IMG/VR virus record: IMGVR_UViG_3300019762_000003
Span: 1-40,885 of that record
Source: a virus
Reading direction: 5' to 3' (one strand)
DNA length: 40,885 nt
Numbering within the stretch: position 1 is the first letter of the stretch; the number at the start of each line of letters is the position of its first letter. A program made the translations under genes and the position numbers. Shown piece after piece: positions 1,498 through 40,675 of the stretch. The notes below the pieces were generated by a model. It did not search any database and had not been told where the DNA came from. It saw only the letters and a list, made by a program, of their open reading frames with translations.

Positions 1498-2268
1498 ATG
1501 GCTAGACATAGTAAAATAAGTGAAATATTCACAGATGCTAGATATAAGTTAGCTGACCCAGATGGTAAAAGTTGGTCTAATGCAAGACTTTTAAGTTTAT
1601 TAAATAATGGTATTAGAAATATTGTATATAATACAGAATTATTAAAAGCTGAGACTTATGTACTATTAGTTGAAGGTCAACAAAAATATGATATATCTGA
1701 TTTAGCTATTAAAATTACTAGGGTTGATTTTGAAAGTAAAAGTATAACTTTTAAAACTCATGCTGATTTAGATAATCTTAATATAGATTGGGATTTAGAC
1801 ACATCTAGTAAGATTAAACATATTATATATGATAAATCAGATAGAGGAGTATTTAAAGTATATCCAAGACCAGAAAAATTAGTAACAAATGTAATAAGTT
1901 CACCTTATGGTATTATTACAGCTATTGATACAGTATATGATATAACATATTATGGAGAGACTTTACAAGACTTACCAAATGATATAGTTAATAATGGTAC
2001 TATGAAAATATATTATGTTAAGAATCCAGATAAATATACAATAGATGATTTAGAAAATGAGATAATTCTAGATGATATTTGGGATGATATATTAGTTCAT
2101 TGGATTGTTGGTACTGCATTAAAAGACGATAGGGATGAGCAAAACCGAGTTATAGGAGCAGATAACTTAAAAGAGTATACCGAAAAACTTAGTACGGCCA
2201 AAGCTGGTGCAGTATCAGAGTTCACTGCATCTAAAGGTAGAACAACTTATAATGGAGGATTTCAATAA
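1498..2268 (+). CDS. Head-to-tail adaptor protein (DUF6682-like)
   Basis: This 256-residue protein matches the phage adaptor family. Its N-terminus has the typical pattern of an Asp-rich turn followed by WSNARLLSLLNNGIRNIV at residues about 26-43, a helix seen in ring-forming connector proteins under the portal. A helical C-terminus with DDIWDDILVHWIVGTALKDD follows. Members form the dodecameric ring joining the portal to the tail nozzle in short-tailed phages. It is preceded by AAAGGATAAAAG as ribosome site and its stop overlaps the next start (TAATG), so it is translationally coupled to the tail fibre. Family assignment is by motif recognition. Confidence 0.75.
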   Translation: MARHSKISEIFTDARYKLADPDGKSWSNARLLSLLNNGIRNIVYNTELLKAETYVLLVEGQQKYDISDLAIKITRVDFESKSITFKTHADLDNLNIDWDLDTSSKIKHIIYDKSDRGVFKVYPRPEKLVTNVISSPYGIITAIDTVYDITYYGETLQDLPNDIVNNGTMKIYYVKNPDKYTIDDLENEIILDDIWDDILVHWIVGTALKDDRDEQNRVIGADNLKEYTEKLSTAKAGAVSEFTASKGRTTYNGGFQ

Positions 2269-5200
2269 TGATAGAAATAGAAAAAAACCTCATAGGTAAA
2301 GAAGATATACTTTTTGGAGTAGGTACTGTTACACAACAAAGAGGTGGTAAATCAGTAAGTATAACAAAAATTAATACTGCTGAAATGCCTTATGATGAAA
2401 CCCTAACTTTAGCAGAGAAGCTACAAGAAGTAGTAGAGGGTAATATTATTGACGATAGTGATATAGCTCTAGATAAAACATATAGTAGTGCTAAAATACA
2501 ACAAATTGATGATGACCAACAAATTCAAATAGATGCTAATCAACAAAATATTGCCAATTTAGCAACAGCACAAGCAGAATTTGGAAGTTCTACACCATTA
2601 GTATTAACTACATCTGAACAAACTTTAGATTGGGATACTTTAGTACCTTCTACTGATACAGATGTTATGACATTAGATGATGTTACAAATAATCAATTAT
2701 TAAAATTAAATGCTAGTTTTAACTATAAAACTGATATGGAATTTGCTATAGGTACAAATCAAGCTAGATTAATTACAGTTAGAGGTAGAAAACTCTCTGA
2801 TGATAGTTTAATTTATGAGCGAAGTGTTACAGTTGATAGTAATAATGGATCAACAGAAACAATACATACTAATAAGTTATTAACAGTTGGTAAGAATGGT
2901 ATACCATCACAACCTTTGGATATTTACTTTACTATTCAGTGTAATGGGACTGGTATTACATTGAATAATTGGTCTTCAAATTTAGCTAGTAGTGCAAGTT
3001 ATGACTTAACAACAACTAGTAAATTTACAGAATTACTAGATACACCAAATAGTTACCAAGGTCAAGCTGGTAAATATCCTAGAGTTAATAATACTGAAGA
3101 TGGGTTAGATTTTGGTAGTTCTTTAAGTACAATAGCTTGTAGTATATGTACAGGTACGGTTGCTATAGACAATATAATACCTACTAAAGGTAGTTTAACA
3201 TATTTATATATAGGTACTGGTGTAAGTAATCCATTGGACTTAGGTGTAGGTTTTATTGACTTTACAGTAGCATTTAATGGTAGTGGTTATTGGTTAGATA
3301 GAAGTGGTGGGTATGGTAATGAAGTATTTAGAAATGATGCTGGTATTGCTCAAGATTTAACAACACCTATTGTATTAGCTCTACCAGTAAATAAATATGC
3401 TGGTAAGTTTGATATCAAGAACAGAGATGCAACTGATAGTCATCAAAATACAGACTCATTAATAGGTATAGATAGTTACCTACATACTAATACAAATGGA
3501 GCAGAAGAAACTAATGTTAATAGAATTACAGATGTTTCTACTACTGGTATTACTATAGGAACTGATGTAACTGTCAATACATTAAATGAAAAATATGTTC
3601 TTCATATAGAAGTATACACACACATCATAGCATCTCTAGTTAATGGTAATCTACAAGTAGTAGCATGGAATCCAATAACTAAAATGGGTATGGCTTATAG
3701 ATTAGGTAGCGATAGTATAGTTAATGCAGATAGACCTTTTAAAGTTGATTATCAAGAAACTAAGAGGTTAGATAGTACAACTATAGGACCAATATATTAT
3801 GGTGATAATTCTAAATATCTTCAATTACATAGTGTTTATAGTACTTACGGAGCTTTAGATATTGTTGATTTTTGGGATAGCACATCTCCTACAAGTACTG
3901 CATTTACATTTATAGGTGGAAACACTATTGTAAACCAATTAGGTGGTGTATATGTAGATTACTTCTTTGGTAATAGTGAATATAAGAAGCTCACAGATAA
4001 TGGTTCAAAAATCACAATAGAAGAGTTTGATATAAATAGAAACACATCATTATTAACTGATAAGAATTACTCTACGACTGGTGATTGGAATAGAATAGAT
4101 TATCAAAGAGGGAACACTAAGGTTATAGAGTTAAATACTGTTGATATAGAAAAAACAATCACTGCAGATAATAGAGTTAATGGAACAGAGGATATCATAT
4201 TCCCATTCGTTACAGATGATAATAACTTATTAGTTACAGATGGAGGGTATATCTACACAGATGGTAAGAACTTAGATGGTTCATTTAATAAGACAAGTGA
4301 AGCGGTATCAGGTGTACAATCATTTGATTTAACTGGTGTAAGTGATGGTAAGAAGTATCTAGCTAGAGAATATGGGACTGGAGCATTGAAAGCTTATGAT
4401 GGCTATTCAGTAGGATTATATGATAAAGAGAGTGCTGATGATAATAGACTAGTGTTTGATGTTGAGAGTGGTAAGCATTATGAGACTGTTGGGGGAGAGT
4501 TAGTTGTTAATGGTACTTTTGATACAGATGTAAGTGGGTGGAGTACTAATAACAGTTCAATTACTCAAGCTAGTGGTGGGCTACAAGTTACAGCTACAAC
4601 GGTAAATGGTTATGCAGTTCAGGGCATCGCAACTATTATTGGAGAAACATATTGTTATATAGCGAGATTAAAAGGCACAACTAGCGGGCAATGTCAACTA
4701 TTTATAGGTACGGAAGGTGGTGATTATTCAAATGTTCTAGAGTTTACAGCTACAAATACAGCTGAAACTAAAGATGTTTCAGGAGTCTTTACCGCTACTA
4801 CAACTACTACTTTTATATCGTTAGTAACTACTGCAGTGGGATACACTACAAATTTCGATAACGTATCAGTATTCAAAAAAGAAGCAACACTTGATACACC
4901 ACTAGCTACACCAGTATCATTCATATCAAGATACCCATATATGGTAGTGTCTGAAACACCTCAATACGAGATGGTAAATGAGAAAGCTATTCCAGTCAAT
5001 ATGATGGATAATTTGACAGCTAGTGGTGATATAGAAACTAAAGGTAAGTTTGTAGGTAAAAATGCTTGTACAGCATGGGTTAGCTTTGATGGTACAACAA
5101 CACCACCTACTATTAGAAGTAGTTTTAATGTTATTGATGTTGTAAGAATAGCTACTGGTAGGTTTGAGATATACTTTACAGAAGATATGAGTACTAATAA

Positions 5201-5378
5201 ATATGTTGGAGCGTATGCAGCGATAAATAATAATACTAATACTGGAGACCATTTATATCAGTGTGTATTGAATTATAAAACACCACAAAAAGTAGCAGTA
5301 AATACAGGGTTCTCACACACTTCAGGGTTGCTAAACCTAAAGGAAGTAGAAGTAATTATATTTGGAGGTAAAAACTAA
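2268..5378 (+). CDS. Tail fibre / receptor-binding protein with carbohydrate-binding-like domain
   Basis: A 1036-residue protein. The N-terminus (about 1-110) has virion-attachment character with a short helical stretch rich in Gln, Ile and Asp. Around 253-281 lies the FTELLDTPNSYQGQAGKY motif common in phage fibres. Around 743-870 is a module beginning LVVNGTFDTDVSGWS and ending TNFDNVSVFKK, the signature of CBM4/9/22-like beta-sandwich carbohydrate-binding domains. The rest is Gly/Asn/Thr-rich beta structure. It should be the host-recognition spike or fibre, and the module suggests a glycan receptor. The start overlaps the adaptor stop and the stop overlaps the chaperone start, giving a coupled trio. 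I saw no hydrolase motif. Confidence 0.85.
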   Translation: MIEIEKNLIGKEDILFGVGTVTQQRGGKSVSITKINTAEMPYDETLTLAEKLQEVVEGNIIDDSDIALDKTYSSAKIQQIDDDQQIQIDANQQNIANLATAQAEFGSSTPLVLTTSEQTLDWDTLVPSTDTDVMTLDDVTNNQLLKLNASFNYKTDMEFAIGTNQARLITVRGRKLSDDSLIYERSVTVDSNNGSTETIHTNKLLTVGKNGIPSQPLDIYFTIQCNGTGITLNNWSSNLASSASYDLTTTSKFTELLDTPNSYQGQAGKYPRVNNTEDGLDFGSSLSTIACSICTGTVAIDNIIPTKGSLTYLYIGTGVSNPLDLGVGFIDFTVAFNGSGYWLDRSGGYGNEVFRNDAGIAQDLTTPIVLALPVNKYAGKFDIKNRDATDSHQNTDSLIGIDSYLHTNTNGAEETNVNRITDVSTTGITIGTDVTVNTLNEKYVLHIEVYTHIIASLVNGNLQVVAWNPITKMGMAYRLGSDSIVNADRPFKVDYQETKRLDSTTIGPIYYGDNSKYLQLHSVYSTYGALDIVDFWDSTSPTSTAFTFIGGNTIVNQLGGVYVDYFFGNSEYKKLTDNGSKITIEEFDINRNTSLLTDKNYSTTGDWNRIDYQRGNTKVIELNTVDIEKTITADNRVNGTEDIIFPFVTDDNNLLVTDGGYIYTDGKNLDGSFNKTSEAVSGVQSFDLTGVSDGKKYLAREYGTGALKAYDGYSVGLYDKESADDNRLVFDVESGKHYETVGGELVVNGTFDTDVSGWSTNNSSITQASGGLQVTATTVNGYAVQGIATIIGETYCYIARLKGTTSGQCQLFIGTEGGDYSNVLEFTATNTAETKDVSGVFTATTTTTFISLVTTAVGYTTNFDNVSVFKKEATLDTPLATPVSFISRYPYMVVSETPQYEMVNEKAIPVNMMDNLTASGDIETKGKFVGKNACTAWVSFDGTTTPPTIRSSFNVIDVVRIATGRFEIYFTEDMSTNKYVGAYAAINNNTNTGDHLYQCVLNYKTPQKVAVNTGFSHTSGLLNLKEVEVIIFGGKN

Positions 5379-8783: not shown

Positions 8784-9047
8784 ATGATTAATAATAGTAT
8801 TATAAAAGTACCAAATAATCTTAATGATGAAATAAGTCTACGAAGGTTTTTAAAAACTTTAGTTACTCAAGTAGATACTTTATCAGGTTATAGAGGTGAA
8901 GTAGAAACAATAAGTAATAATAAAATAATAGAAGTTATACCTTCTACTACTTATGTGCAGACTGAAGCAGAACAAATAGTAGCTAATCAAATATTAATTA
9001 ATAATAAGCTTAATGAGTTATTAGGTTTATTACGAAATAGGGTTTAA
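8784..9047 (+). CDS. Hypothetical small protein, probably virion-associated
   Basis: An 87-residue protein whose ATG follows the nozzle stop codon directly. It is mostly helical: a Lys-Val-Pro-Asn entry, then LRRFLKTLVTQVDTL, and a C-terminal helix NNKLNELLGLLRNRV that could form a coiled coil. Small helical proteins next to the nozzle gene are common in podoviruses and may be needle, plug or assembly factors. I do not recognise a specific family. It is the last gene before the promoter at 9043. Confidence 0.7.
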   Translation: MINNSIIKVPNNLNDEISLRRFLKTLVTQVDTLSGYRGEVETISNNKIIEVIPSTTYVQTEAEQIVANQILINNKLNELLGLLRNRV

Positions 9048-9076
9048 TATTAATTTAATATTAAATTAGATATAAT
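9043..9076 (+). promoter_or_regulatory. Promoter of the shared phage class, before the GNAT gene
   Basis: TTTAATA at 9043-9049 and again at 9054-9060, then TATAAT at 9071-9076. Spacing matches the other elements exactly (28 bases from first heptamer to -10). The first heptamer overlaps the last codons of the previous gene. The ATG at 9082 lies 6 bases after the -10, close to the expected transcription start. Confidence 0.75.
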
Positions 9077-9081
9077 ATAAT

Positions 9082-9510
9082 ATGAATATAGAAAAAGCAA
9101 ACATTGAAGATTATCAGATTATTGTTAAGATGTTTTATAACTTCACTAAAGAAGTATATAAAACAATGACACTAGGTCCTAAGGCAACATTTCATAAACT
9201 AGTGTTAGGTTGGTATGCTAAAGGTATAGATATTCATGTAGTAAAGCAAAATAATAAGATTATTGGTTTTACTATGTGTTATGTTGATACTTTTGCTGGT
9301 ATACTTAATCCAGTATATAGATGTGAAGTAACATATGTAAAGCCTAAGTTTAGAAAAACAAGAGCTTGTTATATATTAATGACTGAAGTAATTAAACGAG
9401 CAGAGTCTGTTGGTTTAAAAGTACATTCTAAAGCCTCAACATATAATAATACTGAAAATTTACATAAACGATTAGGTGCAAAACAAATTTTTATAGAAAC
9501 GGAGAGATAA
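9082..9510 (+). CDS. GNAT-family N-acetyltransferase
   Basis: The 142-residue protein has the GNAT layout. An N-terminal strand-helix is followed by IGFTMCYVDTFAG (about 60-72), a V-x-P-x-F/R-K-T-R-A-CoA-binding turn with YVKPKFRKTRACYILM near 90-105, and a C-terminal TENLHKRLGAKQIF ending that matches the motif B region of the fold. Acetyltransferase genes often sit beside the ejection and portal genes in podoviruses; their targets are not known. No Shine-Dalgarno site lies upstream, and the start is almost on top of the predicted transcription start, so this mRNA may be leaderless. Confidence 0.8.
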   Translation: MNIEKANIEDYQIIVKMFYNFTKEVYKTMTLGPKATFHKLVLGWYAKGIDIHVVKQNNKIIGFTMCYVDTFAGILNPVYRCEVTYVKPKFRKTRACYILMTEVIKRAESVGLKVHSKASTYNNTENLHKRLGAKQIFIETER

Positions 9511-18726: not shown

Positions 18727-19749
18727 CTAAAACTCATCAAAATCTAAACTACCCTTAGAATAGTTTACAACATTACCTTCAAAGAAATTAGTTCTTTGGT
18801 CATTAAAACTAGAGTATCCATCAACCCAAGGAATTGGATGTTTAACATTATATTCAGGTTTATAACCCACTGCTTCAAGTCTTCTATCTGCTAAGTATTG
18901 AATATATTGTCTAATAATAGAATCAGTAAATCCTAAAATCTTACCTTGTGTAATATAAGAACCCCAAACTGATTCTAACTTAACAGCTTCTCTAAACATA
19001 CTTCTAACTTCTACTTCAAGTTCTGAATCAAACAACTCCGGTCGTTCTCTTCTTGTACTATTAATTAAATTTTGAAACAATAGTAAATGTGTTACTTCAT
19101 CTCTTTGAATGAATTTAATCATTTGAGCTGAACCTTGCATCTTACCACTTTTACCCAAAGCATATATCGCAGCAAAACCAGCATAGAAATAAATACCTTC
19201 TAATATTTGATTTGCAAACATTGCAAGTACAATTTTTCTATCAGTAATATCACCAGTTAAATTCTCATATGTTTCAGCAATATAATTATTTTTCATCTGT
19301 AAAACAGCATCCACTTTCCACATATTATATATCTCATCTGTATTATCAGAAATTGATTCTACCATAACAGCATATGATTTACTATGGTTTGCTTCTTCAT
19401 AAGATTGTCTAGCTAAAATAGCATTAATCTCAGGAGCAGTAATATATGGATTTATATTATCCATAAGATTATTTACTTGTAAACTATCCATAAAAATTAA
19501 CTGACTTAAAACTAAATCATACATTCTCTTTTCTTCTGGAAGTAAATATTTATAATCTTTTGCATCTTGAGTCATTTGTACTTCTTTAGGAAACCATGTA
19601 TTTGCTTCCATTTGATCCCAAAGTCTTGTTGCCCATTCATATTTACATCTTGTAAAATTTATCATACCATCAGGATTACCACTAATAGTACATCTATCAT
19701 TAAGAGTTTCTAATGAATCTGGGTTATATACTATTTTCTTACCAGTCAT
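18727..19749 (-). CDS. nrdB: Ribonucleotide reductase class I, beta subunit
   Basis: The 340-residue protein has every metal ligand of an R2 subunit: Asp88 (MDSLQ), Glu119 and His122 (EEANHSKSY), Glu184 ([11 protein letters not shown]), Glu218 and His221 (RDEVTH). The radical Tyr is present at 126. It makes and holds the radical that lets the alpha subunit reduce ribonucleotides to dNTP precursors. The C-terminus LDFDEF could dock to an alpha subunit. No alpha subunit is encoded in this complete genome, so it must pair with the host NrdA. It overlaps the ligase gene by 11 bases and starts behind GAGGATAAAG. Confidence 0.95.
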
Positions 19750-21751: not shown

Positions 21752-21979
21752 CTATTCTCCAATCTCTAATTTTAAACTTTTTTCTGCAAAAGGATGCAGA
21801 ACTGTACCATCATATTTATAAACATTACAAGCTACAGATAAGCTAGGATTATAAGATTTCTTATAAGCACTTAACATACTTGCTGATACTTGAAGTATGT
21901 CAATCATTTTATTACTTTCCATACCTGCTTCTAACTTCTCAGTAACATACTTTTGTATAGTTACAACTTCATCTTCCAT
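21752..21979 (-). CDS. Small putative HTH regulator
   Basis: I place the start at ATG 21979, seven bases after an AAAGGAG site; the longer frame to 22000 would begin inside the -10 box. The 75-residue protein is mostly helical, with NKMIDILQVSASMLSAYKKS at about 23-42 resembling the helix-turn-helix of small Cro-like proteins. The rest, LSVACNVYKYDGTVLHPFAEKSL, has helical and strand character. The promoter directly upstream is overlapped by a 22-bp palindrome, so I suggest it binds there and controls itself. The DNA-binding role is inferred and the HTH match is moderate. Confidence 0.6.
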   Translation of the reverse strand: MEDEVVTIQKYVTEKLEAGMESNKMIDILQVSASMLSAYKKSYNPSLSVACNVYKYDGTVLHPFAEKSLKLEIGE

Positions 21980-21989
21980 TAAATCTCCT

Positions 21990-22011
21990 TTGTGATACAA
22001 TTATATCACAA
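21990..22011. promoter_or_regulatory. 22-bp palindromic operator
   Basis: TTGTGATA at 21990-21997 and TATCACAA at 22004-22011 flank CAATTA. Only one pair in the whole 22 bases is not complementary. It covers the -10 box of the promoter at 22000-22033 and ends next to the ribosome site, the position of a repressor operator. A similar half-site is at 27952-27965 before the DNA polymerase gene. Confidence 0.65.
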
Positions 22012-22033
22012 TATTTATTAAAATCTTATTAAT
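22000..22033 (-). promoter_or_regulatory. Promoter of the shared phage class, before the HTH gene
   Basis: Reading the minus strand: ATTAATA at 22033-22027, TTTAATA at 22022-22016, TATAAT at 22005-22000, with the same 28 and 17 base offsets as the other copies and an extended -10 (GTGA before TATAAT). The predicted start is near 21993, giving a leader of about 14 bases with a strong ribosome site. Confidence 0.8.
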
Positions 22034-28003: not shown

Positions 28004-28669
28004 TTATAGTTGTGGGGCATTATCTTCATTATCTGCAATACCTGCAACAGCATCTTCAGAATCTAAGTCTAAATCATCACCCTCAATCTCTTCTGTATCA
28101 ACAGTATCACCCTCATATTTAACTAAAGATGCTAATTGAACAGCTTTTAAATATAATGTTACTTTTTGAGTACCACCAGTATCATTTCCTTGTGCAGTTC
28201 CATGAATAATTCCTCTAGAACCTTCACCAATTGCCCAAGAAGCTTTTTGGATAATATTTGTTAAGTCTTTACCAGATTTATCAAACACTTTAATAATTTG
28301 TGCATTACCATCAGCCCATTTTGTATTAGTTTTGAATGTGATAAGAACATTACCAGTTGGTACTTTCTTAATCTCTTCTGTTTCTGGGTCAATTTCACCA
28401 GACTCACAATTTTTCATTTCATCTTTAATACCATTAGTTTTTGGTAAACCTTTTGCACCAACAAATTTTTTGTAATCTTCCCACTCTTTAGTAATTTGTT
28501 CTAAAAAATGTTTATGAATTTCACCATCTTTTTCACATACTAATGTTGATGTATATTGCATTCTTGGTTCTTCACCAGGCATTGCATTATTTTTACCTTC
28601 ACCTGTAATAAATACATATTTTAAATCACCTACTTTTGTCTTAACTGTTGTACCTTTTCTTTTTGCCAT
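28004..28669 (-). CDS. Single-stranded DNA-binding protein (phage type)
   Basis: I start at ATG 28669 (behind AAAGAAAGAG); the longer frame begins with TTG at 28711. The 221-residue protein starts with basic residues (MAKRKGTTVKTK), has a beta-rich core including LVCEKDGE and VPTGNVLITFKTN, and ends in a very acidic tail (DTEEIEGDDLDLDSED and on), the hallmark of phage SSBs that recruit partners through the C-terminus. It looks like the DUF2815/gp2.5-like group. It would coat replication forks and contact polymerase and helicase. A long structured leader precedes it and a terminator follows, so it is a one-gene transcript. Confidence 0.8.
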   Translation of the reverse strand: MAKRKGTTVKTKVGDLKYVFITGEGKNNAMPGEEPRMQYTSTLVCEKDGEIHKHFLEQITKEWEDYKKFVGAKGLPKTNGIKDEMKNCESGEIDPETEEIKKVPTGNVLITFKTNTKWADGNAQIIKVFDKSGKDLTNIIQKASWAIGEGSRGIIHGTAQGNDTGGTQKVTLYLKAVQLASLVKYEGDTVDTEEIEGDDLDLDSEDAVAGIADNEDNAPQL

Positions 28670-28869
28670 GTTATACTCTTTCTTTATCTTTTTTAATTTG
28701 TTTAATTTCAACTGCCTACAGGATTATAGACTTATTTTAACATATAGTGGCAAAATAAATAACACCACTTAATTATAAAGGAAAATCCACTATATGCTAA
28801 AATAAATCTAAAGTTAATTAGATTTATTACTTAATAAAATGGAGTGCTAAATTCCATCCAGTCTATCGG
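28670..28869 (-). promoter_or_regulatory. Structured 5' leader of the SSB mRNA
   Basis: About 190 untranslated bases lie between the predicted start (near 28863) and the SSB ATG. They contain several hairpins: ATGGA/TCCAT at 28839-28857, an 11-bp stem at 28801-28811/28818-28828 with a 6-base loop, and CATATAGTGG/CCACTATATG at 28741-28750/28787-28796. AAGTCTATAATCC occurs near both ends. Such a leader could let SSB regulate its own translation. Confidence 0.5.
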
Positions 28870-28903
28870 ATTATAGACTTTTAAATACTAATATAATATT
28901 AAC
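28860..28903 (-). promoter_or_regulatory. Promoter of the shared phage class, before SSB
   Basis: On the minus strand GTTAATA at 28903-28897, ATTAGTA at 28892-28886, TATAAT at 28875-28870, offsets 28 and 17 as in the other copies. The -10 lies in a perfect 7-bp stem AGTCTAT/ATAGACT (28860-28866 with 28873-28879). It is the most divergent copy. Confidence 0.6.
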
Positions 28904-28988: not shown

Positions 28989-29014
28989 GTTAAGTAAGAA
29001 TAATCTTACTTAAC
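28989..29014 (-). terminator. Terminator-like hairpin overlapping the stop codon
   Basis: GTTAAGTAAGA (28989-28999) pairs perfectly with 29004-29014 around a 4-base loop. It contains the stop codon of the gene ending at 29006. A weak T-run follows on the minus strand. Confidence 0.6.
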
Positions 29015-29500
29015 ATCTTCTTCTGCAGGTTTAGGTACAATAATACCAACTTTAGAGAAGTCTGGTTTTGCAGCAGCTAATTTAGTTAACAACTCTTGAC
29101 CAGCTTCAGGTGTAATTTTCTTGCTAATAACATCAGCCATGATAGCTTTTTCAGATGCAGTATTAACTTTGATAAATTGTTTTCTAACAGCTTCAGCTTG
29201 TCTTGATAATCTTTTAAGACCATTGATACCTTTACCTTCAACTTTCTCTTCATAGAAGTACTCAGGTGTTGCAGGTAAGAATTTACCAGATACAGAACAT
29301 TGAATTTCAACAATTTTACCATCTTTATCTTTTTTAGTTACTTCATCAATATTTACAGTTGCTCCACCAGCTTTTGGTGCTAAATGTACATCAAGAACTT
29401 CATTTAATTCTGCTGTTACTTTTTCATTTAATTTGTTTGCTTTACATACTGCTGCGATTGCCGCTACTACTAGTTGGTGAGTCTCTTTTTTACTTGCCAT
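29006..29500 (-). CDS. Early protein, paralogue of the gene at 36023-36508
   Basis: A 164-residue protein. Residues 8-40 are a helix with KVTAELNEVLDVHLAPKAGG, almost the same pattern as SVQAELLEVLRQHLEPKGSGG in the 36508 gene. A middle part has EIQCSVSGKFLPATPEYF, matching CRWHQKYYPEEF of the relative but without its other Cys and His, so a zinc site is probably lost here. The C-terminus is helical and ends acidic. It is the first full gene of a promoter-headed, terminator-closed unit. I recognise no function; DNA or RNA polymerase contact is possible for an early protein pair. Confidence 0.75.
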   Translation of the reverse strand: MASKKETHQLVVAAIAAVCKANKLNEKVTAELNEVLDVHLAPKAGGATVNIDEVTKKDKDGKIVEIQCSVSGKFLPATPEYFYEEKVEGKGINGLKRLSRQAEAVRKQFIKVNTASEKAIMADVISKKITPEAGQELLTKLAAAKPDFSKVGIIVPKPAEEDVK

Positions 29501-29591: not shown

Positions 29592-29624
29592 ATTATATCG
29601 AAATAATCTTAAACGAATATTAAA
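29592..29624 (-). promoter_or_regulatory. Promoter of the shared phage class, before the 29006 gene
   Basis: On the minus strand TTTAATA at 29624-29618, TTTAAGA at 29613-29607, TATAAT at 29597-29592. Offset from the first heptamer is 27, one less than in other copies. It lies just after the stop of the helicase gene. Confidence 0.75.
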
Positions 29625-32373: not shown

Positions 32374-34562
32374 TCTTCTACTCCTTCAATTGATTCAATA
32401 CCTAAGTCTAATCCCTCAGGTGCCTCATATATTGTTATATATTTCTCAACAATATTCTTATTAAATTTTAGTCTTTTGTTACCATCTTTTTCAGATGCTA
32501 TTCTATCTATTGTTTTATTAATAGAGTCGTTACCAGAGTTTCTAGCGAATGCATTTTTCAATGAGGTCACACTAATAACTAAGTTTTTTGCTTTATTATA
32601 TTTAAAGTCAAAATCTTCCATATTCAAACTAAATGCTTCTAATATTTTAACAAACCCATCATAGTTCTGCTCCCATAATAATGTAGATGCTAAGTCTGAT
32701 TTACTTTGAGTACTCTCAAGATATAAATCATAAGCTTCTGACTTTTGCCTACTTATAGCATTCTTATAATGGTCTACAGTAAATGTTGGGTTATGATAAA
32801 CATTACCTAACCAATAATAAAAATCTAATATATTCTTATTACTAATAATACTTGTAAGCTCAGCCGAACTATAATTACCTCCAGACTCTACCTCTAGTGG
32901 GTGAGGCATATAAACAACATGCACCCGTCTTTGTGTTAAGGGGTCTGTATGTAACTTAACCCACTCGTTCGCAGTTATCCATATCTTTATTAATGTGGGT
33001 ACCACTGTTGCTGTCTTCTGCATATCTCTAAATGTAACATTACCATTACTACCAGATATAGTCTTTAGTTCTGTTAGTAAATCAGCTCGTTCCATAGACT
33101 TCCATGAACCTATCTCACTAAATACTGCATTCTCTTCAGTCTGCCAATTACTATGCTTATCTTTAAGTAACTGATAGTTAAGATTCTGAGGGTGTGAACT
33201 AAACCCAGCAGTTAACAATGCTACAGTTAAATCCTTACCACTACCTTCAGTACCCTTTAAAAATGTAACCACCGGACTAAACTGAAATGTACTATATCTA
33301 TGCTTAGTAGTGCTTAACAAATAGTCAAACTCCTCACCCCACATATATCTCATCAAGTCTAACAATCTAGTAGGCTCAGTATAGTCACTAGGTTTTGTAC
33401 CTGTAAATGCAGTCAAGTTACTATTTATAAATGCTTTGTTATAACAGTTACTTTTAAAGTCATAACCCGCAGGTATTTTATAGTCGTTTATAATTTCTAC
33501 TGGTGTAACATCTGCTGTCTTCCTCCTAAGCACATCTTTCTTATGTTGAGATATCTTCTCCATTATCTCTATATAACTGCTAACATTCTTAAGTGTATGC
33601 ACCTCAGTAACACCCTTACCATCCAAGTAATGTATCAGATAACTCCCATCAGCTATATTAAAATATGCACTTATCTTAGTCTTATATCTTCTATGGATAG
33701 TAGTAAATGTATGAGTAAGTTTATTCTTGTCATACCTCCACAAACCATTAGTGTTCTTTACCATCCTATCAGTTATCTCTAACCTAAGCGCACTTTCAGT
33801 CTTCCTCTGATGCTCTTTATTAAATTTTTCCATTACCGCTAAGTAATCATCAATGTTTATAGTCTCATCAGAAGCAAGCCTAGTACTTAGTGACAAGTAA
33901 GCCTCATTACTACCACCCTCAGGTATCGGATTTTGCACACCATAAAACTCATGGAACTGCTCTTGACTTATGAGGTTACTAAGATATGCCTTAATAAAAT
34001 CTGCTGCATCATCACTATACCGCTCACCATCTCTTAGAGATATAGTTCTCATCTCTTGTGGTATATGTTGCAGTACCAATAAACTAACGAATGTATTTAT
34101 CACACTATTATACTTAGTTAGTGTACCACGATGCAATACCATCTTACCAGCATCACCCTTACTAGGTGCTATAACATTGTGACCACTACCAACTAATATA
34201 TCTAATACTTGTTGTTTAGTGTGCCCATCAGGTAGTTGTACAGTATCGTTGCTTAAGTAGTAAAAGTGACCACCGTGCCGCATACTCTTTATTATCAATC
34301 CACACTGATATTCAGGCGCTAAACTATCGTTAAACTCTAGTGCTTGGTTAAATGCACCATCATCATCAAAATCTATTACCGAGACATTATCAGTTCTAAT
34401 AACCATCAAATGTTCCGACTCTATTATATCCTCAAGAGTCATCGTAGCTTTACTCTTCTTCCACCCACTCTTAAGATATAATTCAGATAATACCTTCTTA
34501 TCATCTTTAGTAACTATCTTATGTGTTGTACTTAGAGTCGCTATATTAACTAAAGTGTTCAT
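32370..34562 (-). CDS. Primase-helicase, AEP-type primase with SF3-like helicase
   Basis: A 730-residue bifunctional protein. The N-terminal part has VIDFDDDGA with Asp64 and Asp66, then RHGGHFYYLS (95-104) and GSGHNVIAPS (125-134), the arrangement of a primase-polymerase (AEP, PrimPol-like) domain. The helicase domain has Walker A KGTEGSGKD at 436-444, Walker B NAVFSEIG at 478-485 with Glu483, and a later TLIKIWITANEW that fits the SF3/D5-type. It should start and unwind at the origin. The gene lies next to the iteron-rich AT region at 34975-35340. Its base composition looks less AT-rich than its neighbours. Confidence 0.85.
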   Translation of the reverse strand: MNTLVNIATLSTTHKIVTKDDKKVLSELYLKSGWKKSKATMTLEDIIESEHLMVIRTDNVSVIDFDDDGAFNQALEFNDSLAPEYQCGLIIKSMRHGGHFYYLSNDTVQLPDGHTKQQVLDILVGSGHNVIAPSKGDAGKMVLHRGTLTKYNSVINTFVSLLVLQHIPQEMRTISLRDGERYSDDAADFIKAYLSNLISQEQFHEFYGVQNPIPEGGSNEAYLSLSTRLASDETINIDDYLAVMEKFNKEHQRKTESALRLEITDRMVKNTNGLWRYDKNKLTHTFTTIHRRYKTKISAYFNIADGSYLIHYLDGKGVTEVHTLKNVSSYIEIMEKISQHKKDVLRRKTADVTPVEIINDYKIPAGYDFKSNCYNKAFINSNLTAFTGTKPSDYTEPTRLLDLMRYMWGEEFDYLLSTTKHRYSTFQFSPVVTFLKGTEGSGKDLTVALLTAGFSSHPQNLNYQLLKDKHSNWQTEENAVFSEIGSWKSMERADLLTELKTISGSNGNVTFRDMQKTATVVPTLIKIWITANEWVKLHTDPLTQRRVHVVYMPHPLEVESGGNYSSAELTSIISNKNILDFYYWLGNVYHNPTFTVDHYKNAISRQKSEAYDLYLESTQSKSDLASTLLWEQNYDGFVKILEAFSLNMEDFDFKYNKAKNLVISVTSLKNAFARNSGNDSINKTIDRIASEKDGNKRLKFNKNIVEKYITIYEAPEGLDLGIESIEGVEE

Positions 34563-34939
34563 TATTCTATACTCCCACCAAGATGATTATCTACTAAATC
34601 TTTATGTAATGCTTTAGCTCCTGGTGTACTACTCACTTCCTCATCTCTAGATTTAATAACTAGTTGAGATAGTTTAGCATTACCAAGAGGCTCTACCTGT
34701 ACTAAATTATCCATCTGGGATGCTTCTACTAATAATAGTTCCGCCTCTAATACCTCTTTAAGTAGTGGAAGTAGGTGACTAAATTTTACACTGGTTAATC
34801 CTAAGTCTATAGCGACTCTATTTTGATTCCGTAGTGAGATGTCCAGTAGTATCTCCTTAGTAAAGTGTATTAATAGTTGATAATAGTTTTGCATTTTGTT
34901 GTTTTGTTTTATTTGCTGTTTAAATTCGTTATAGTTCAT
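34562..34939 (-). CDS. Putative HTH protein, possible replication regulator
   Basis: A 125-residue helical protein. Residues about 38-64 (RNQNRVAIDLGLTSVKFSHLLP) resemble a helix-turn-helix; the remainder is Leu/Glu/Lys-rich. It has its own promoter (34968-35001), and AAAGGACAAATACA precedes the start. It lies directly upstream of the primase-helicase gene (TAATG overlap) and directly downstream of the iteron-rich DNA, so an origin-binding or regulatory role is a reasonable guess. Confidence 0.6.
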   Translation of the reverse strand: MNYNEFKQQIKQNNKMQNYYQLLIHFTKEILLDISLRNQNRVAIDLGLTSVKFSHLLPLLKEVLEAELLLVEASQMDNLVQVEPLGNAKLSQLVIKSRDEEVSSTPGAKALHKDLVDNHLGGSIE

Positions 34940-34967: not shown

Positions 34968-35001
34968 ATTATATCTTAATATATATTAAAATTATATTAA
35001 A
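34968..35001 (-). promoter_or_regulatory. Promoter of the shared phage class, before the HTH-primase operon
   Basis: On the minus strand TTTAATA at 35001-34995, TTTAATA at 34990-34984, TATAAT at 34973-34968; all three boxes are perfect matches with 28 and 17 base offsets. The predicted start is near 34961, about 22 bases before the ATG. Confidence 0.8.
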
Positions 35002-35783: not shown

Positions 35784-36033
35784 CTTCTTGCTCCTCAGCA
35801 TCTTCTAAATCTATCTCAGCGAATGTTTGAAACATATCATCGCTCAACTCACTTATACCACTAACTTTAGTTTGTACATCACTTAGTAATTCATCATCCT
35901 CCAATACAATAGTTATCGTATACATTTTACTTCTAATAATTCTAGTAGCATGCATCTCAATATCTGTAATACTAAAACTAGTAGTGAGTGGTATTGTTGT
36001 ACCAGGCAGTATTATATTTTCTCTAAATGTCAT
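35776..36033 (-). CDS. Hypothetical acidic protein
   Basis: An 85-residue protein with a beta-rich N-terminal half (ILPGTTIPLTTSFSITDIE, then MYTITIVLEDDELL) and a very acidic C-terminus (EIDLEDAEEQEDE). No family recognised. Acidic tails on small early proteins can mimic DNA or contact DNA-binding proteins, but that is speculation here. It overlaps both neighbours. Confidence 0.65.
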   Translation of the reverse strand: MTFRENIILPGTTIPLTTSFSITDIEMHATRIIRSKMYTITIVLEDDELLSDVQTKVSGISELSDDMFQTFAEIDLEDAEEQEDE

Positions 36034-36508
36034 CTTTCTCTACCTCTTTTTTATTATTTTTATTGAATACTTCCCAATCTTCTTTTTGTGAATAGAATTC
36101 TGGTTTGTTAAAATTATCTTTTAATGTTCTACTAGCAAGTGCAACTTCTTGGGCTTTGTCAAAATTTCCACTACTCATTAGTTTAACAGCTTCACTCTCT
36201 AATTTTTTAATTTCACTATTAGTTTTATTCCACTTACTAATTGCAGCTTTACAATACCCTTTTGATTTTCCTTTACTCATAACCATAAACTCTTCTGGGT
36301 AATACTTTTGGTGCCATCTGCAATAATAGTTCATCACTCCATCAATTTCCATAGGTGGATGAAGACTATTCCCTCCACTACCTTTTGGTTCTAAATGTTG
36401 TCTTAATACTTCTAATAGTTCGGCTTGTACTGATTTATCAACTTTATTATTATTCAATACTTCTAGTACACTTTTATTCACTTTATCAAATAGTTCTACC
36501 TTTTTCAT
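36023..36508 (-). CDS. Early protein with Cys/His zinc-like motif, paralogue of 29006-29500
   Basis: A 161-residue protein. The N-terminal helix ends ELLEVLRQHLEPKGSGGN, shared with the 29500 gene. In the middle YYCRWHQKYYPEEFMVMSKG followed by GYCK gives C-x2-H ... C, a possible zinc site. The C-terminus is helical and Lys/Asn-rich. It lies in the first operon after the stacked early promoters, starts behind GGGAGAATAATT and overlaps its neighbour. Function unknown; probably an early regulatory or DNA-binding protein. Confidence 0.7.
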   Translation of the reverse strand: MKKVELFDKVNKSVLEVLNNNKVDKSVQAELLEVLRQHLEPKGSGGNSLHPPMEIDGVMNYYCRWHQKYYPEEFMVMSKGKSKGYCKAAISKWNKTNSEIKKLESEAVKLMSSGNFDKAQEVALASRTLKDNFNKPEFYSQKEDWEVFNKNNKKEVEKDDI

Positions 36509-36510
36509 AA

Positions 36511-36843
36511 TTATTCTCCCTTATTTATTACTTCTATCAAACTATCAAATAGTAAGTCAAATTGATTCTCAAATTTTTCACCAGACGTTTCTCCGCTCAG
36601 AACTCTAGCCAATTCCACTATTTTATTATAGACTTCAGTATTCTTTTGACAATGTTTAGTTAAGTCTCTAATAAACTCTTGATGTTTCACTGGAGCAATA
36701 TATTTCTCTACTAATTCATTATGCTCTTTACTTCCAATATATAAATCAAAAAGGTTTCTATAATCATCATTATCACCAAAACATTCATCATTAATAGTAT
36801 AACCATACTTTTTCATTAGTTCTCTTTCTTCATTATATAACAT
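36511..36843 (-). CDS. Hypothetical early protein
   Basis: I choose ATG 36843 behind GGAGG; an upstream TTG adds five residues. The 110-residue protein is helical with many charged residues (EERELMKKYGY, KHQEFIRDLTKHCQKNTEVYNKIVEL). No family recognised. It lies between two other early genes with no gap. Confidence 0.65.
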   Translation of the reverse strand: MLYNEERELMKKYGYTINDECFGDNDDYRNLFDLYIGSKEHNELVEKYIAPVKHQEFIRDLTKHCQKNTEVYNKIVELARVLSGETSGEKFENQFDLLFDSLIEVINKGE

Positions 36844-36844
36844 C

Positions 36845-36997
36845 TTACATTCCTCCAAAGAATACTTTAGTACATTGTACTGTAATTTCTAGTCCATTTC
36901 TAGACACTTCTATACTATCACAAGTATTGATAAAAATCTCTACTTCTTGTAATTTATTTAATAGTACTTGTTTACTATTAGTTATTAACTCTAACAT
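36845..36997 (-). CDS. Small early protein (50 aa), first gene of the early operon
   Basis: A 50-codon gene starts at ATG 36997 with an AAAGGAAAC ribosome site, about 17 bases after the start predicted for the nearest promoter (37021-37054). The product MLELITNSKQVLLNKLQEVE and on has a helix then strands (IEVSRNGLEITVQ). The stop lies one base before the next ATG. As the first gene transcribed it may be a host-takeover protein; sequence gives no family. Confidence 0.7.
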   Translation of the reverse strand: MLELITNSKQVLLNKLQEVEIFINTCDSIEVSRNGLEITVQCTKVFFGGM

Positions 36998-37020
36998 TTG
37001 TTTCCTTTATTTATATTATA

Positions 37021-37054
37021 ATTATATCATACTTTCTATTAAATTTATATTAAA
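37021..37054 (-). promoter_or_regulatory. Early promoter 3
   Basis: On the minus strand TTTAATA at 37054-37048, TTTAATA at 37043-37037, TATAAT at 37026-37021 with extended -10 TATG. It is one of three copies about 110 bases apart and the one closest to the first early gene. Confidence 0.85.
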
Positions 37055-37130
37055 TTTTCGAACTAATTCAAATTTTTAATATTCACTTAATAATAAAATT
37101 TAATATAATATTCTTTTTAAATATATTATA

Positions 37131-37164
37131 ATTATAACATACTTATTATTAAATTTATATTAAA
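37131..37164 (-). promoter_or_regulatory. Early promoter 2
   Basis: TTTAATA at 37164-37158, TTTAATA at 37153-37147, TATAAT at 37136-37131, with the same extended -10 (TATG). It sits 110 bases upstream of promoter 3 and shares flanking sequence with it, so the two arose by tandem duplication. Confidence 0.85.
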
Positions 37165-37241
37165 TTTTTCGATTAATTATAATTTTTAAATAACACAAAA
37201 ATATATAAACTTTATATATATCTCTCTTTTTATATATTATA

Positions 37242-37275
37242 ATTATATCATACTTTATATTAAAGTTATATTAAA
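37242..37275 (-). promoter_or_regulatory. Early promoter 1
   Basis: TTTAATA at 37275-37269, TTTAATA at 37264-37258, TATAAT at 37247-37242, extended -10 TATG. It sits 111 bases upstream of promoter 2. All three would read toward the first early gene. Confidence 0.85.
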
Positions 37276-37351
37276 AAGTAATATTAATTATATATATATT
37301 AATATTATATAAAAATATATAAATTATATATATAAAAATTTATATAATATA

Positions 37352-37448
37352 TCCTAAATGGCTCATACTTGAGATATATGGGCTTTTATATATTTAGGCT
37401 TATTATTATATTAATAAATTTTAAAAGCCCATATTTCGCGAGTATGGG
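37352..37448 (-). other. Structured element A: long stem-loop
   Basis: ATATGGGCTTTTA at 37376-37388 pairs perfectly with 37422-37434 (13 bp). Outside an internal loop, CTCATACT (37362-37369) pairs with AGTATGGG (37441-37448), with one G-U pair. It resembles element B at 22.1 kb in sequence and spacing. It lies in the leader of transcripts from the two upstream promoters and above early promoters 1-3. Confidence 0.65.
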
Positions 37449-37474
37449 GTTATTTTAATATATTATATACAAAT

Positions 37475-37493
37475 AATAATGATAATTAATATC
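37475..37493. promoter_or_regulatory. Fur-box-like sequence 1
   Basis: Matches the classical 19-bp Fur consensus at 16 of 19 positions (AATAATGATAATTAATATC). It lies just downstream of the -10 of promoter 37503-37536, about +3 to +21. In AT-rich DNA such matches can arise by chance. Confidence 0.4.
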
Positions 37494-37502
37494 AAGTGTC
37501 TT

Positions 37503-37536
37503 TAAATAACATAATTTATATTAAAAGTAGCTTAAA
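37503..37536 (-). promoter_or_regulatory. Upstream early promoter (32-bp repeat copy 1)
   Basis: TTTAAGC at 37536-37530, TTTAATA at 37525-37519, TATTTA at 37508-37503, offsets 28 and 17. Most of it lies in a 32-base repeat (37510-37541) that is identical at 37593-37624. The -10 is weaker than in promoters 1-3. Confidence 0.6.
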
Positions 37537-37563
37537 TAATATATAAATTTAAAACTTTATGGT

Positions 37564-37582
37564 GATAATCATTATTATTTGC
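37564..37582. promoter_or_regulatory. Fur-box-like sequence 2
   Basis: GATAATCATTATTATTTGC, 15 of 19 matches to the Fur consensus on the other strand. It covers the predicted start of promoter 37586-37619, the same relative place as box 1 at its promoter. Confidence 0.4.
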
Positions 37583-37585
37583 TTA

Positions 37586-37619
37586 TAAATAGCATAATTT
37601 ATATTAAAAGTAGCTTAAA
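37586..37619 (-). promoter_or_regulatory. Upstream early promoter (32-bp repeat copy 2)
   Basis: TTTAAGC at 37619-37613, TTTAATA at 37608-37602, TATTTA at 37591-37586, the same layout as copy 1, 83 bases further upstream. The repeat core 37593-37624 is identical to 37510-37541. Confidence 0.6.
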
Positions 37620-37639
37620 TAATAATATTTTTGTTACTT

Positions 37640-37658
37640 GATAATGATATTCAATACC
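37640..37658. promoter_or_regulatory. Fur-box-like sequence 3
   Basis: GATAATGATATTCAATACC, 16 of 19 matches to the Fur consensus. It lies upstream of promoter copy 2 on the minus strand. Confidence 0.35.
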
Positions 37659-37714
37659 CCCCTATAGACAATCCTCTTTTTATTCTTTTAACAATGGTTG
37701 CTCAAATTTACGGG

Positions 37715-37875
37715 TACAGTTTTCAAACATTCATCACAACTCAATTACATCTCATAGAATCTAATAAAATTTATTATACAGTTTTCAAACATTCATCACA
37801 ATTTAATCACATCCCATAGAATCTAATAAAATTTTAGATAATACATCACAATTCAATTAATTTACAAAGAATCCC
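37715..37875. repeat. 62-bp tandem repeats before the terminase genes
   Basis: Two imperfect copies, 37715-37776 and from 37777 to about 37838, share TACAGTTTTCAAACATTCAT then CACAA, ATAGAATCTAATAAAATTT. A partial third copy (about 37843-37875) keeps CATCACAAnTCAATTA and AGAATC. They end just before the promoter at 37888. A packaging (pac) site or regulatory array is possible. Confidence 0.7.
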
Positions 37876-37876
37876 C

Positions 37877-37910
37877 CTTAAGCAAACTCTAATATAAATC
37901 AAGATATAAT
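37877..37910 (+). promoter_or_regulatory. Promoter of the shared phage class, before terminase
   Basis: CTTAAGC at 37877-37883 (similar to TTTAAGC of the early copies), TCTAATA at 37888-37894, TATAAT at 37905-37910, offsets 28 and 17. Predicted start near 37917, 15 bases before the terS ATG with AAGGAA between them. Confidence 0.7.
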
Positions 37911-37931
37911 AAGAGAAAACAAGGAATTCAA

Positions 37932-38450
37932 ATGGCACTTTCAAACACATTACTCCTATCATACCAAATCGAATATCAAACGACAGATATTACCATACTA
38001 GAACTATGTGAGAAGTATAATATTAGTACAAAAGATTTAAAAGGTTACACTAAATGGGAGAAAGAGAACCTACCAGAGGTTGAAGCAGAAGAAACTATAG
38101 TAACAGACATACAAACTATTACAGAACCAACTACATTAGTTGAAGAGTCTAAAACAATAGTAACAGACATACAAACTATTACAGAACCATTAGGTATTGA
38201 GCCAGATTCAAATACTAATAGTGAAGTGGATAAATTACGTGATGATATAAATTCGTTTAAAACTAAAGCGATGGCAGAATGTTTAAGATGGATGGATAAT
38301 GATGCAGAGTATGGGGAGGTTAAGGAGTTTAAAGATATAGTATCTATAGTTGATAAATTAGAGCAGAGTATAAGTGATAAGAAACCTGAGAATGAGACTC
38401 CACAAATTCAGATACAAATTAATAATATAATGAGTAAATATGCAGACTAA
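37932..38450 (+). CDS. Probable small terminase subunit
   Basis: A 172-residue protein directly before the large terminase gene, overlapping it by 11 bases. Residues about 17-38 (TTDITILELCEKYNISTKDL) read as a helix-turn-helix, expected for the DNA-recognition end. The middle carries a duplicated stretch, TIVTDIQTITEP twice about 21 residues apart, whose DNA copies are nearly identical. A helical C-terminal part (residues about 95-150) could form the oligomer core. It would recognise phage DNA at a packaging site, possibly the repeats just upstream. Assignment rests on position and HTH. Confidence 0.7.
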   Translation: MALSNTLLLSYQIEYQTTDITILELCEKYNISTKDLKGYTKWEKENLPEVEAEETIVTDIQTITEPTTLVEESKTIVTDIQTITEPLGIEPDSNTNSEVDKLRDDINSFKTKAMAECLRWMDNDAEYGEVKEFKDIVSIVDKLEQSISDKKPENETPQIQIQINNIMSKYAD

Positions 38451-39972
38451 AAATTTAACACCAGAGCAGGAAGAATTCGTAAAAACAAAACTTAGTAATA
38501 AGGCTTGGAGACTTAATAATCTGTATAAGATTAAGAATAAGGATGGTAGAGTTGTTACTATGAAGCTTAATGATGCTCAGACTAAACTTACATATAAGTT
38601 TAAACATAATCGTAAGATTATTCTTAAGTCGCGGCAGCAAGGAATTAGTACATACTATCTAGCATCTGAACTAGATGATTGTTTATTTGATGATGGTATT
38701 GAAGCTGGTATTCAATCTATTGGGCAGGATGAGGCTGAGAAGCTTGCAAGAAGAGCATTATTAATGTGGGATGAATTTGACCCAGATATTAAAGCACTTT
38801 TAGGGATTACACTAATAACAAACAATAGTAAAGGTATGTCATTTAGTAATGGTTCAATTCTTAAGATAGGTAACTTTAGAGGGGATACACTACAAAGATT
38901 ACATGTTTCAGAGTTAGGGAAGATAGCTAAGAAATATCCAGAGAAAGCTAAAGAACTTAAGACTGGAGCATTCCAGGCAGTATCAGTATCTAATCATATT
39001 ACTATTGAGTCTACAGCTGAGGGTAAAGAGGGATTATTTGCTGAGATGTGGTTTATAGCTTATGCTAAAGCATTATCTAATCTACCATTAACTCCACTAG
39101 ATTTTCAGGCGATATTCCTTAGTTGGGTTTATGATAATGACTGTGCTATGAATATGGAAGTAGTGATACCAGATAGTATACAAGAGTATTTTGATAAGAT
39201 AGAGAAAGAACTAGATATAATACTTACACAACAACAGAAATGGTGGTATGCTGCTAAGTCAATAGAATTAGGTGAAGATATTAAACGTGAATATCCCGCA
39301 ACACCAGAAGAAGCATTTGAGCAATCAGTAGAGGGTACTATATTAAGACAAGAATATAAACGATTATTTGAAGAGGGAAGAGTACAGAAAGATTTAGCTT
39401 TTAAAGATTATCCAACATCAGTTTCATATGATTTAGGTGTTAATGATACAACAGTGCTTACATTTGTACAAAAACCACCAAATAGTAAACCTAGGGTAGT
39501 ATTTGAATATGAAAATAGTGGTGAAGGTTTAGAGTTTTATGTAGATATTATGAGACGTTCTGGTTTTAATATCACAGTAGTATACTTACCACATGATGCT
39601 AATGTTAGAGACTTTAGTACAGGTGTTACAAGGATAGATATGTTTAGACGTCTTGGTGTACCTGCTGTATTATTGAAGAGACATAGTCATGAGGATTACA
39701 TACAAGCACTTAGGTATTTTATTAATAATTGTTTGATAGATGAAAGATGTGAGAGATTAATTACTGCTATACAAACATATAGATGGAAGTTCGATAAGAT
39801 GATAGGTGTTTATCTTAAGATACCTCAACATGATCAGGTTAGTAATAATATAGATAGTTTGAAGTATATGGCTATAGGTTTAGGTATGGCAATGCATGGA
39901 AATAACAATAGTAACCAACAACCACAAAAAAATACAACTAGTAGAGTAAAGAAAAAAGGTTATTCTGTTTAA
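38440..39972 (+). CDS. terL: Terminase large subunit
   Basis: A 510-residue packaging motor. The ATPase has a deviant Walker A, LKSRQQGIST (Arg65 to Thr71), and Walker B LHVSELG with Glu158. A hydrophobic strand, AIFLSWVY, and the EYPATPEEAFEQSVEGTILRQEY linker (284-306) are typical of P22/Sf6-type large terminases. The nuclease (RNase H-like) has SYDLGVND with Asp331, LPHDANVRD with Asp386, and a late Asp in NNIDSLKYMA. It cuts and pumps DNA into the prohead through the portal. The C-terminal 25 residues are Asn/Gln/Lys-rich. Confidence 0.95.
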   Translation: MQTKNLTPEQEEFVKTKLSNKAWRLNNLYKIKNKDGRVVTMKLNDAQTKLTYKFKHNRKIILKSRQQGISTYYLASELDDCLFDDGIEAGIQSIGQDEAEKLARRALLMWDEFDPDIKALLGITLITNNSKGMSFSNGSILKIGNFRGDTLQRLHVSELGKIAKKYPEKAKELKTGAFQAVSVSNHITIESTAEGKEGLFAEMWFIAYAKALSNLPLTPLDFQAIFLSWVYDNDCAMNMEVVIPDSIQEYFDKIEKELDIILTQQQKWWYAAKSIELGEDIKREYPATPEEAFEQSVEGTILRQEYKRLFEEGRVQKDLAFKDYPTSVSYDLGVNDTTVLTFVQKPPNSKPRVVFEYENSGEGLEFYVDIMRRSGFNITVVYLPHDANVRDFSTGVTRIDMFRRLGVPAVLLKRHSHEDYIQALRYFINNCLIDERCERLITAIQTYRWKFDKMIGVYLKIPQHDQVSNNIDSLKYMAIGLGMAMHGNNNSNQQPQKNTTSRVKKKGYSV

Positions 39973-40001
39973 TATTAGTTTAATAAAACTTTGGTTATAA
40001 T
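39968..40001 (+). promoter_or_regulatory. Promoter of the shared phage class, before scaffold and capsid
   Basis: TTTAATA at 39968-39974, TTTAATA at 39979-39985, TATAAT at 39996-40001; extended -10 TGGT. It overlaps the terL stop. It would drive scaffold, capsid and the small capsid gene up to the terminator at 1441. Confidence 0.85.
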
Positions 40002-40048: not shown

Positions 40049-40675
40049 ATGGATGAATATGGTATTCCAACAGAACAAAATAATTCTGATGCTACCGCTA
40101 CTCCTGAGGTAACTCTTGAGACTTTGCAAGTAGAATTAGAAAAGACACAGAAGAGATTCAGAGATACGCAAGCAGCGTATACTAAAGGTCAACAAGAACT
40201 TGCACGAATGAAGGCTGAGAAAGAGACAACACCTCTTATAATTGATGCTAAGACTCAAGAGGAACTTGATACACTAAAGTTTGAAGACCCGGACGCATGG
40301 AAAGCTAGATTAGATAAGCTAGACCAAGAGCATAAACAAAAAAATAAAGAAATATTATCAAAAGCTGAGATGGCTAGTGAGATGGCTAAACGTGAAGTAT
40401 TACTTTCGGACTTTAATGCAAACAGAGAGACTCCTATAACATTTGATACTATCAAAAAAGATGTCCCTTTTCGAATTACTGAGAAGTTATCTAATGGTGA
40501 AGTAACATTTGAAGAATATTTAGTAGAGGTTGATAATTATTTATCAATCCCAAAAGTTGTTGCTGGTAGTAAACCTGGTGAAAAAGAACCAGATTTTAAC
40601 GGTGCAGGTGGTAGCTCAGAAGTTAGAGCTAGTGCAGCAGAGCAAGAAAAAAGTTATGAAAATGATGTTTATTAA
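40049..40675 (+). CDS. Scaffold protein
   Basis: A 208-residue acidic, coiled-coil protein without Cys between terL and the capsid gene, the usual place of a scaffold. Residues about 24-60 (LQVELEKTQKRFRDTQAAYTK) and 88-120 are strong coiled coils. The middle has TIKKDVPFRITEKLSNGEVTFEEYL. The C-terminus is Gly/Ser-rich and disordered. It would guide capsid assembly and leave before packaging. It is the first gene after the promoter at 39968. Confidence 0.85.
   Translation: MDEYGIPTEQNNSDATATPEVTLETLQVELEKTQKRFRDTQAAYTKGQQELARMKAEKETTPLIIDAKTQEELDTLKFEDPDAWKARLDKLDQEHKQKNKEILSKAEMASEMAKREVLLSDFNANRETPITFDTIKKDVPFRITEKLSNGEVTFEEYLVEVDNYLSIPKVVAGSKPGEKEPDFNGAGGSSEVRASAAEQEKSYENDVY

Follow-up and report, generated by a model that had tools for sequence, protein, structure and literature searches.

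In Campylobacter jejuni and Helicobacter pylori, the promoters recognised by sigma-70 have no −35 box and consist of the element gnTAnaAT and a T signal at positions −7, −17, −27 and −38 (PMC3847290). Of 8,019 start sites of C. jejuni, about 89% show a periodic A/T pattern together with TGxTATAAT (PMC3656092). The canonical −35 of this bacterium has also been given as TTTAAGTnTT, which doubled the activity of the cj0183 promoter when it was put into it (PMC3824568), and the promoters of Sulfurospirillum resemble those of the TTTAAGTnTT type (PMC7755780). PMC3824568 and PMC3656092 refer to Wosten (1998) and Petersen (2003) for the housekeeping promoters of the Campylobacterota.

The DNA analysed here, hereafter the window, is a whole podovirus-like phage contig of 40.9 kb. 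By portal, terminase and DNA polymerase, the closest named phages are Vibrio phage VPMS1, Pseudoalteromonas phage PH1, Edwardsiella phage KF-1 and Dickeya phage Amaethon, which infect gammaproteobacteria, and two Manatee Spring genomes were also among the nearest by these proteins. The leftward genes encode DNA polymerase, primase/helicase, ligase, thymidylate synthase, dCMP deaminase and NrdB; the rightward genes encode terminase and structural proteins, and the promoter array described below lies in the divergent region between both blocks. The terminase genes of the window (37932-39972) are co-directional with the structural genes, whereas VPMS1 and Amaethon have theirs on the other strand, together with the early genes. 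The gene of the ribonucleotide reductase small subunit (18727-19749) has its nearest named phage proteins at 33–38% identity, and a gene for the large subunit was not seen in the window. As host marker NrdB was uninformative, no tRNAs were found within the window, and a nucleotide search for the host with its right-hand 10.9 kb gave no match.

Scanning both strands of the window for TTTAATA-N4-TTTAATA-N10-TATAAT identified six exact sites and one with a single mismatch, all seven located upstream of genes (Table 1). An earlier note on this sequence had proposed a single promoter architecture repeated just upstream of genes, and the position of these seven strong sites bears this out. Its count of twelve copies was generous, since the other five (37877+, 28903-, 29624-, 37536- and 37619-) are looser and two of them (37536 and 37619) do not have TATAAT. 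The one exception that the note mentions to the offset of 28 bases between first heptamer and TATAAT is site 29624-.

Table 1. Sites related to the double-heptamer motif in the window, and the intergenic region that contains the array.
Feature	Position	Strand	Context
Exact promoter, first of three in tandem	37242..37275	-	before leftward early genes; TGA before TATAAT
Exact promoter, second of the tandem array	37131..37164	-	TGT before TATAAT
Exact promoter, third of the array	37021..37054	-	TGA before TATAAT
Exact promoter	34968..35001	-	28 nt ahead of ORF 34562-34939
One-mismatch site	22000..22033	-	before small gene 21752-21979 and the genes after it
Exact promoter	9043..9076	+	before GNAT gene 9082-9510
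Exact promoter	39968..40001	+	before ORF 40049-40675
Degenerate site CTTAAGC / TCTAATA / TATAAT, four heptamer mismatches	37877..37910	+	before ORF 37932-38450
Variant TTTAATA-N4-TTTAAGA-N9-TATAAT, one base shorter, offset 27	29592..29624	-	upstream of gene 29006-29500
Weak site, three mismatches	28870..28903	-	upstream of ssDNA-binding-protein-like gene 28004-28711
Doubtful promoter, TTTAAGC-N4-TTTAATA with TATTTA in place of TATAAT	37503..37536	-	
Doubtful promoter, TTTAAGC-N4-TTTAATA with TATTTA at the −10 position	37586..37619	-	copy of the 37536 unit, 83 bp away
Divergent intergenic region, 1.07 kb, 82% AT, holding the promoter array	36860..37931	.	between leftward replication block and rightward terminase/structural block

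The double-heptamer motif is real. Among the 77 TTTAATA words of the window, pairs of the form TTTAATA-Ng-TTTAATA peak only at g=4 (6 times), every other gap being found at most twice, and TTTAATA-Ng-TATAAT has its peaks, of 7 occurrences each, at g=10 and g=21. The earlier note had proposed shuffled sequence and related phages as controls. The exact motif did not arise in 400 shuffles keeping the dinucleotides within 300-bp blocks, nor in 5000 shuffles of the region 36860-37931, and the orthologous genes of relatives carry the promoter, as detailed below. A compositional accident, in which AT-rich intergenic DNA and local duplication yield TTTAATA and TATAAT by chance, would fit the AT content of that region and the presence of three of the six exact sites in one duplicated unit. 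However, the shuffles, the fixed phase (TTTAA is enriched before TATAAT only at hexamer offsets −28 and −17) and the conservation of the motif before orthologues leave this reading a negligible probability, and chance in AT-rich DNA is refuted by the shuffles and the relatives.

The duplicated unit is 93 nt long, contains the sites at 37054, 37164 and 37275, and is repeated at 110–111 bp with copies 78% and 68% identical. The three sites of the array are therefore not independent, and it is the relatives that carry the statistical weight. The site at 37054 precedes a short ORF (ATG near 36996, with AAAGGA as ribosome site), which is followed by ORF 36511-36858. Two further repeats were observed in the same intergenic region. 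A 62-nt unit at 37463-37588, duplicated 83 bp apart, contains the Fur-box-like palindromic stretches TGATAATCATTATTATT and TGATAATTAATATCA, and one of the sites 37536 and 37619 is a copy of the other. A 58-nt direct repeat, a possible operator or origin element, stands in three copies at 37715-37884, after the early array and ahead of the rightward promoter; the copies have spacings of 62 and 50 bp, and two of them are 93% and 62% identical to the first.

The motif is present in the IMG/VR contigs G001 to G004, whose proteins in common with the window average 43–53% identity, and the same promoter was found upstream of orthologous genes at about 40–60% protein identity. Motif sites precede the orthologues of ORF 40049-40675 and of ORF 37932-38450, the gene directly ahead of terminase, in G002, G003 and G004. 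In G003 and G004, two tandem copies of the motif precede the orthologue of early gene 36023-36508. The counterpart of small gene 21752-21979 in G003 has an orthologous site, and a looser one is found before the G004 orthologue of ORF 34562-34939. At 9043+ the TATAAT ends 5 nt ahead of the ATG of the GNAT gene, and because of this distance its mRNA is predicted to be leaderless; site 23487- of G003 stands at an equal 5-nt distance from its ORF. For C. jejuni, mRNAs without a leader and with such a layout have been documented (PMC3847290).

Alignment of 55 sites of the window clade refined the consensus to TTTAAT(A/C)-N4-TTTAAT(A/C)-N8-G-N-TATAAT. The G two bases ahead of TATAAT is present in 48 of the 55 sites and a T just before that position in 32. 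The words are mostly TTTAAT, with G at position 6 in 7 of the 55 first heptamers and 4 of the 55 second ones. At two orthologous promoters of G004 the heptamers are TTTAAG/TTTAAA, so that T and G forms are interchangeable, and both are covered by the relaxed pattern TTTAAK-N5-TTTAAK-N8-TGNTATAAT. The one-base-shorter spacing of site 29624- predominates in the T4-like contig G012, which suggests some tolerance in spacing. No earlier description of such a doubled word was found in the open-access papers searched.

When the last T of TATAAT is set at −7, the T-runs of the heptamers end at −27 and −38. The sites of the window clade also possess the extended −10 feature of Campylobacterota sigma-70 promoters (gnTAnaAT or TGnTATAAT), and TTGAC showed no enrichment at any offset before intergenic TATAAT. 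The earlier note had compared the motif with host sigma-70 promoters, for which the E. coli type is the wrong yardstick; the motif matches the published layout of Campylobacterota sigma-70 promoters. This sharpened likeness to a Campylobacter-type housekeeping promoter makes the host polymerase the most likely reader and points to the host of the phage. The sites are thus very probably near-optimal host-type sigma-70 promoters for the RNA polymerase of Campylobacterota (epsilonproteobacteria). From the promoter sequences we infer that the host would belong to the Campylobacterota or be a bacterium with the same sigma-70 specificity.

The distribution of the motif was studied with an exact scan of its TG form. 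Among 2.9 million viral contigs, 21 stretches were obtained, essentially all in two phage clades, the podovirus clade of the window and a T4-like clade from metagenomes whose capsid proteins are nearest to those of Vibrio Va1-like and Campylobacter phages. Among 84,980 bacterial and archaeal species there were seven scattered matches, of which five came from MAGs of Bacilli or Erysipelotrichaceae, and no exact copy in a Campylobacterota. With the word relaxed to TTTAA and the reversed pattern as control, Campylobacter phages CP220, F379 and F341 gave 65 sites against 17, 84 against 16 and 29 against 9, respectively, carrying the word as TTTAAG-N5-TTTAAG with TATAAT. Vibrio phage Va1 was not enriched (6 against 3), and the gammaproteobacterial podoviruses VPMS1 and PH1 gave no sites with this relaxed pattern. 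Counting TTTAA at both phased positions gave 5 sites for the window and 35 for its relatives, 32 for the T4-like contigs and 18 for CP220, with a single one in F341, whose first word is mostly GTTAAG or ATTAAG. None was present in the podoviruses of gammaproteobacteria, in the two genomes from Manatee Spring, in Va1, in the H. pylori phages KHP40 and FrMEG235U or in the three Campylobacterota plasmids described below. A T-phase score over all intergenic TAWAAT reached z values of 3–4 in the window relatives, the T4-like group and CP220, and was too diluted both in F341 (0.0) and in the window alone (0.7). Neither a strict site nor a phased TTTAA signal was detected in a 100-kb Aliarcobacter plasmid and two Sulfuricurvum plasmids of about 160 kb. 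Measured against the genome scan and these three plasmids, the greater strictness that the earlier note had ascribed to the motif relative to host promoters was confirmed (7 genome matches versus 21 viral stretches).

Both clades have motif-bearing and motif-free members, and within each the motif tracks the type of host and not the lineage. Where the host is known, it separates Campylobacter from gammaproteobacterial hosts. Proteins common to both clades, namely a thymidylate-synthase-like protein shared by podovirus G002 and T4-like G008 (64% identity) and segments of the fibre-like protein of the window (2268-5378) shared with G012, are signs of gene exchange and suggest encounters of the two clades in hosts of a similar kind. 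G012, a T4-like contig of 194 kb, has a predicted tmRNA gene beside a tRNA-Thr (L086:334-721) and, elsewhere, tandem 11-bp units TTTAATACTAC. Some observations stand against a host reading of the motif. The Campylobacterota plasmids and H. pylori phages tested are without the strict motif, the genome scan gave no exact copy in a Campylobacterota, the T4-like phages from metagenomes are no closer to Campylobacter phages than to Vibrio phage Va1, and the heptamer is TTTAAT here and TTTAAG in C. jejuni material.

The earlier note had suggested from the strictness of the motif that a phage sigma factor or activator may read it. No Sigma70_r2 or Sigma70_r4 domain was detected in the window, no Sigma70_r4 in G002, G003, G014 or G015, and no PHROG or Pfam match to an RNA polymerase or sigma factor among the proteins searched. 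PF00940 (T7-type RNA polymerase) had no match in five phages, a search whose control likewise matched no genome. On these negative domain searches a phage sigma factor was rejected as reader, and a phage RNA polymerase seems unlikely in that role. No transcription factor common to both clades was recognisable either, the shared proteins being nucleotide-metabolism, ligase, tail-fibre and unassigned ones. Moreover, the motif stands at a presumptive immediate-early array, which would have to be active before any phage protein is present, and this position does not support a phage factor.

Classic sites of OmpR/PhoP-type factors are laid out as direct repeats at 11 bp beside a −10. The phage might accordingly encode an activator, carried in the virion or synthesised early, that binds the heptamers as a direct-repeat dimer and recruits host RNA polymerase to the extended −10. 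Besides the layout, the strictness of the motif relative to host promoters and the many small early proteins without family speak for such an activator. We consider it very unlikely, since at the array before the first leftward genes, where the motif is strongest, a factor that first has to be synthesised would arrive too late, two unrelated clades have the motif with no recognisable factor in common, gammaproteobacterial relatives with the same core genes do not have it, and published host promoters show the same layout. It is also improbable that the phages exploit a host activator, different from sigma-70 itself, that binds the direct repeat. The 11-bp repeats would suit a response regulator, and the sites of an OmpR-family regulator of Sulfurospirillum are direct repeats overlapping the −35 region (PMC7755780). 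However, the share of mapped C. jejuni start sites with the periodic pattern goes far beyond any one regulon, and the repeat is found here across early, middle and late genes.

According to the preferred reading, a Campylobacterota-type host polymerase, RNA polymerase with the housekeeping sigma factor would bind, on phage entry, one face of the DNA at about −38, at −27 and at the extended −10, the heptamers being 11 bp, one helical turn, apart. No TTGACA box would be needed. The tandem array before the first leftward genes would give a strong early burst, and the dispersed copies would drive later operons. As a more tentative proposal, the "periodic signal" of the Campylobacterota might be a sequence-specific word pair, TTTAA(T/G) with starts near −40 and −29, read by the sigma-70 holoenzyme as a doubled replacement of the −35, whose full consensus two unrelated phage lineages would have reached independently. 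If this were true, the phage consensus would show the preference of the host polymerase. Promoter finding without a −35 box in Campylobacterota knows only a diffuse periodic AT signal, for which these phages give a sharp consensus. For phages that only metagenomes have revealed, the motif could be used as a signature of the host, given that the viral scan returned essentially two clades. Campylobacter phages would also be better annotated with it: for at least one, the C. coli phage IBB_35, a Eucampyvirinae relative, the promoters were annotated with the E. coli consensus (PMC3322345).

Finally, the motif was compared with known systems. The middle promoters of T4, with their MotA box, also have an upstream word at a fixed distance from an extended −10, and OmpR/PhoP-type sites are likewise direct repeats at 11 bp, but the word differs in both cases. 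Unlike MotA-type middle promoters, the motif of the window is also found at the presumptive early array, "early" being by gene position only. The double heptamer is missing from VPMS1, KF-1, PH1 and Amaethon, phages of Vibrio, Edwardsiella, Pseudoalteromonas and Dickeya that belong to the podovirus clade according to their portal, terminase and DNA polymerase. The Campylobacter T4-like phages CP220, F379 and F341 (Eucampyvirinae) share the two words 11 bp apart and the 28-base offset to TATAAT, and differ in the word, TTTAAG, and in that CP220 seldom has G at −14. The sigma-70 promoters of the Campylobacterota coincide with the motif in the extended −10, the G at −14, the absence of TTGACA, the T-tracts at about −27 and −38 and the period of 10–11 bp; whereas in the host they form a weak periodic signal, in the phage they are a pair of sharp heptamers whose offset is fixed, for the most part TTTAAT(A/C) and not TTTAAG.
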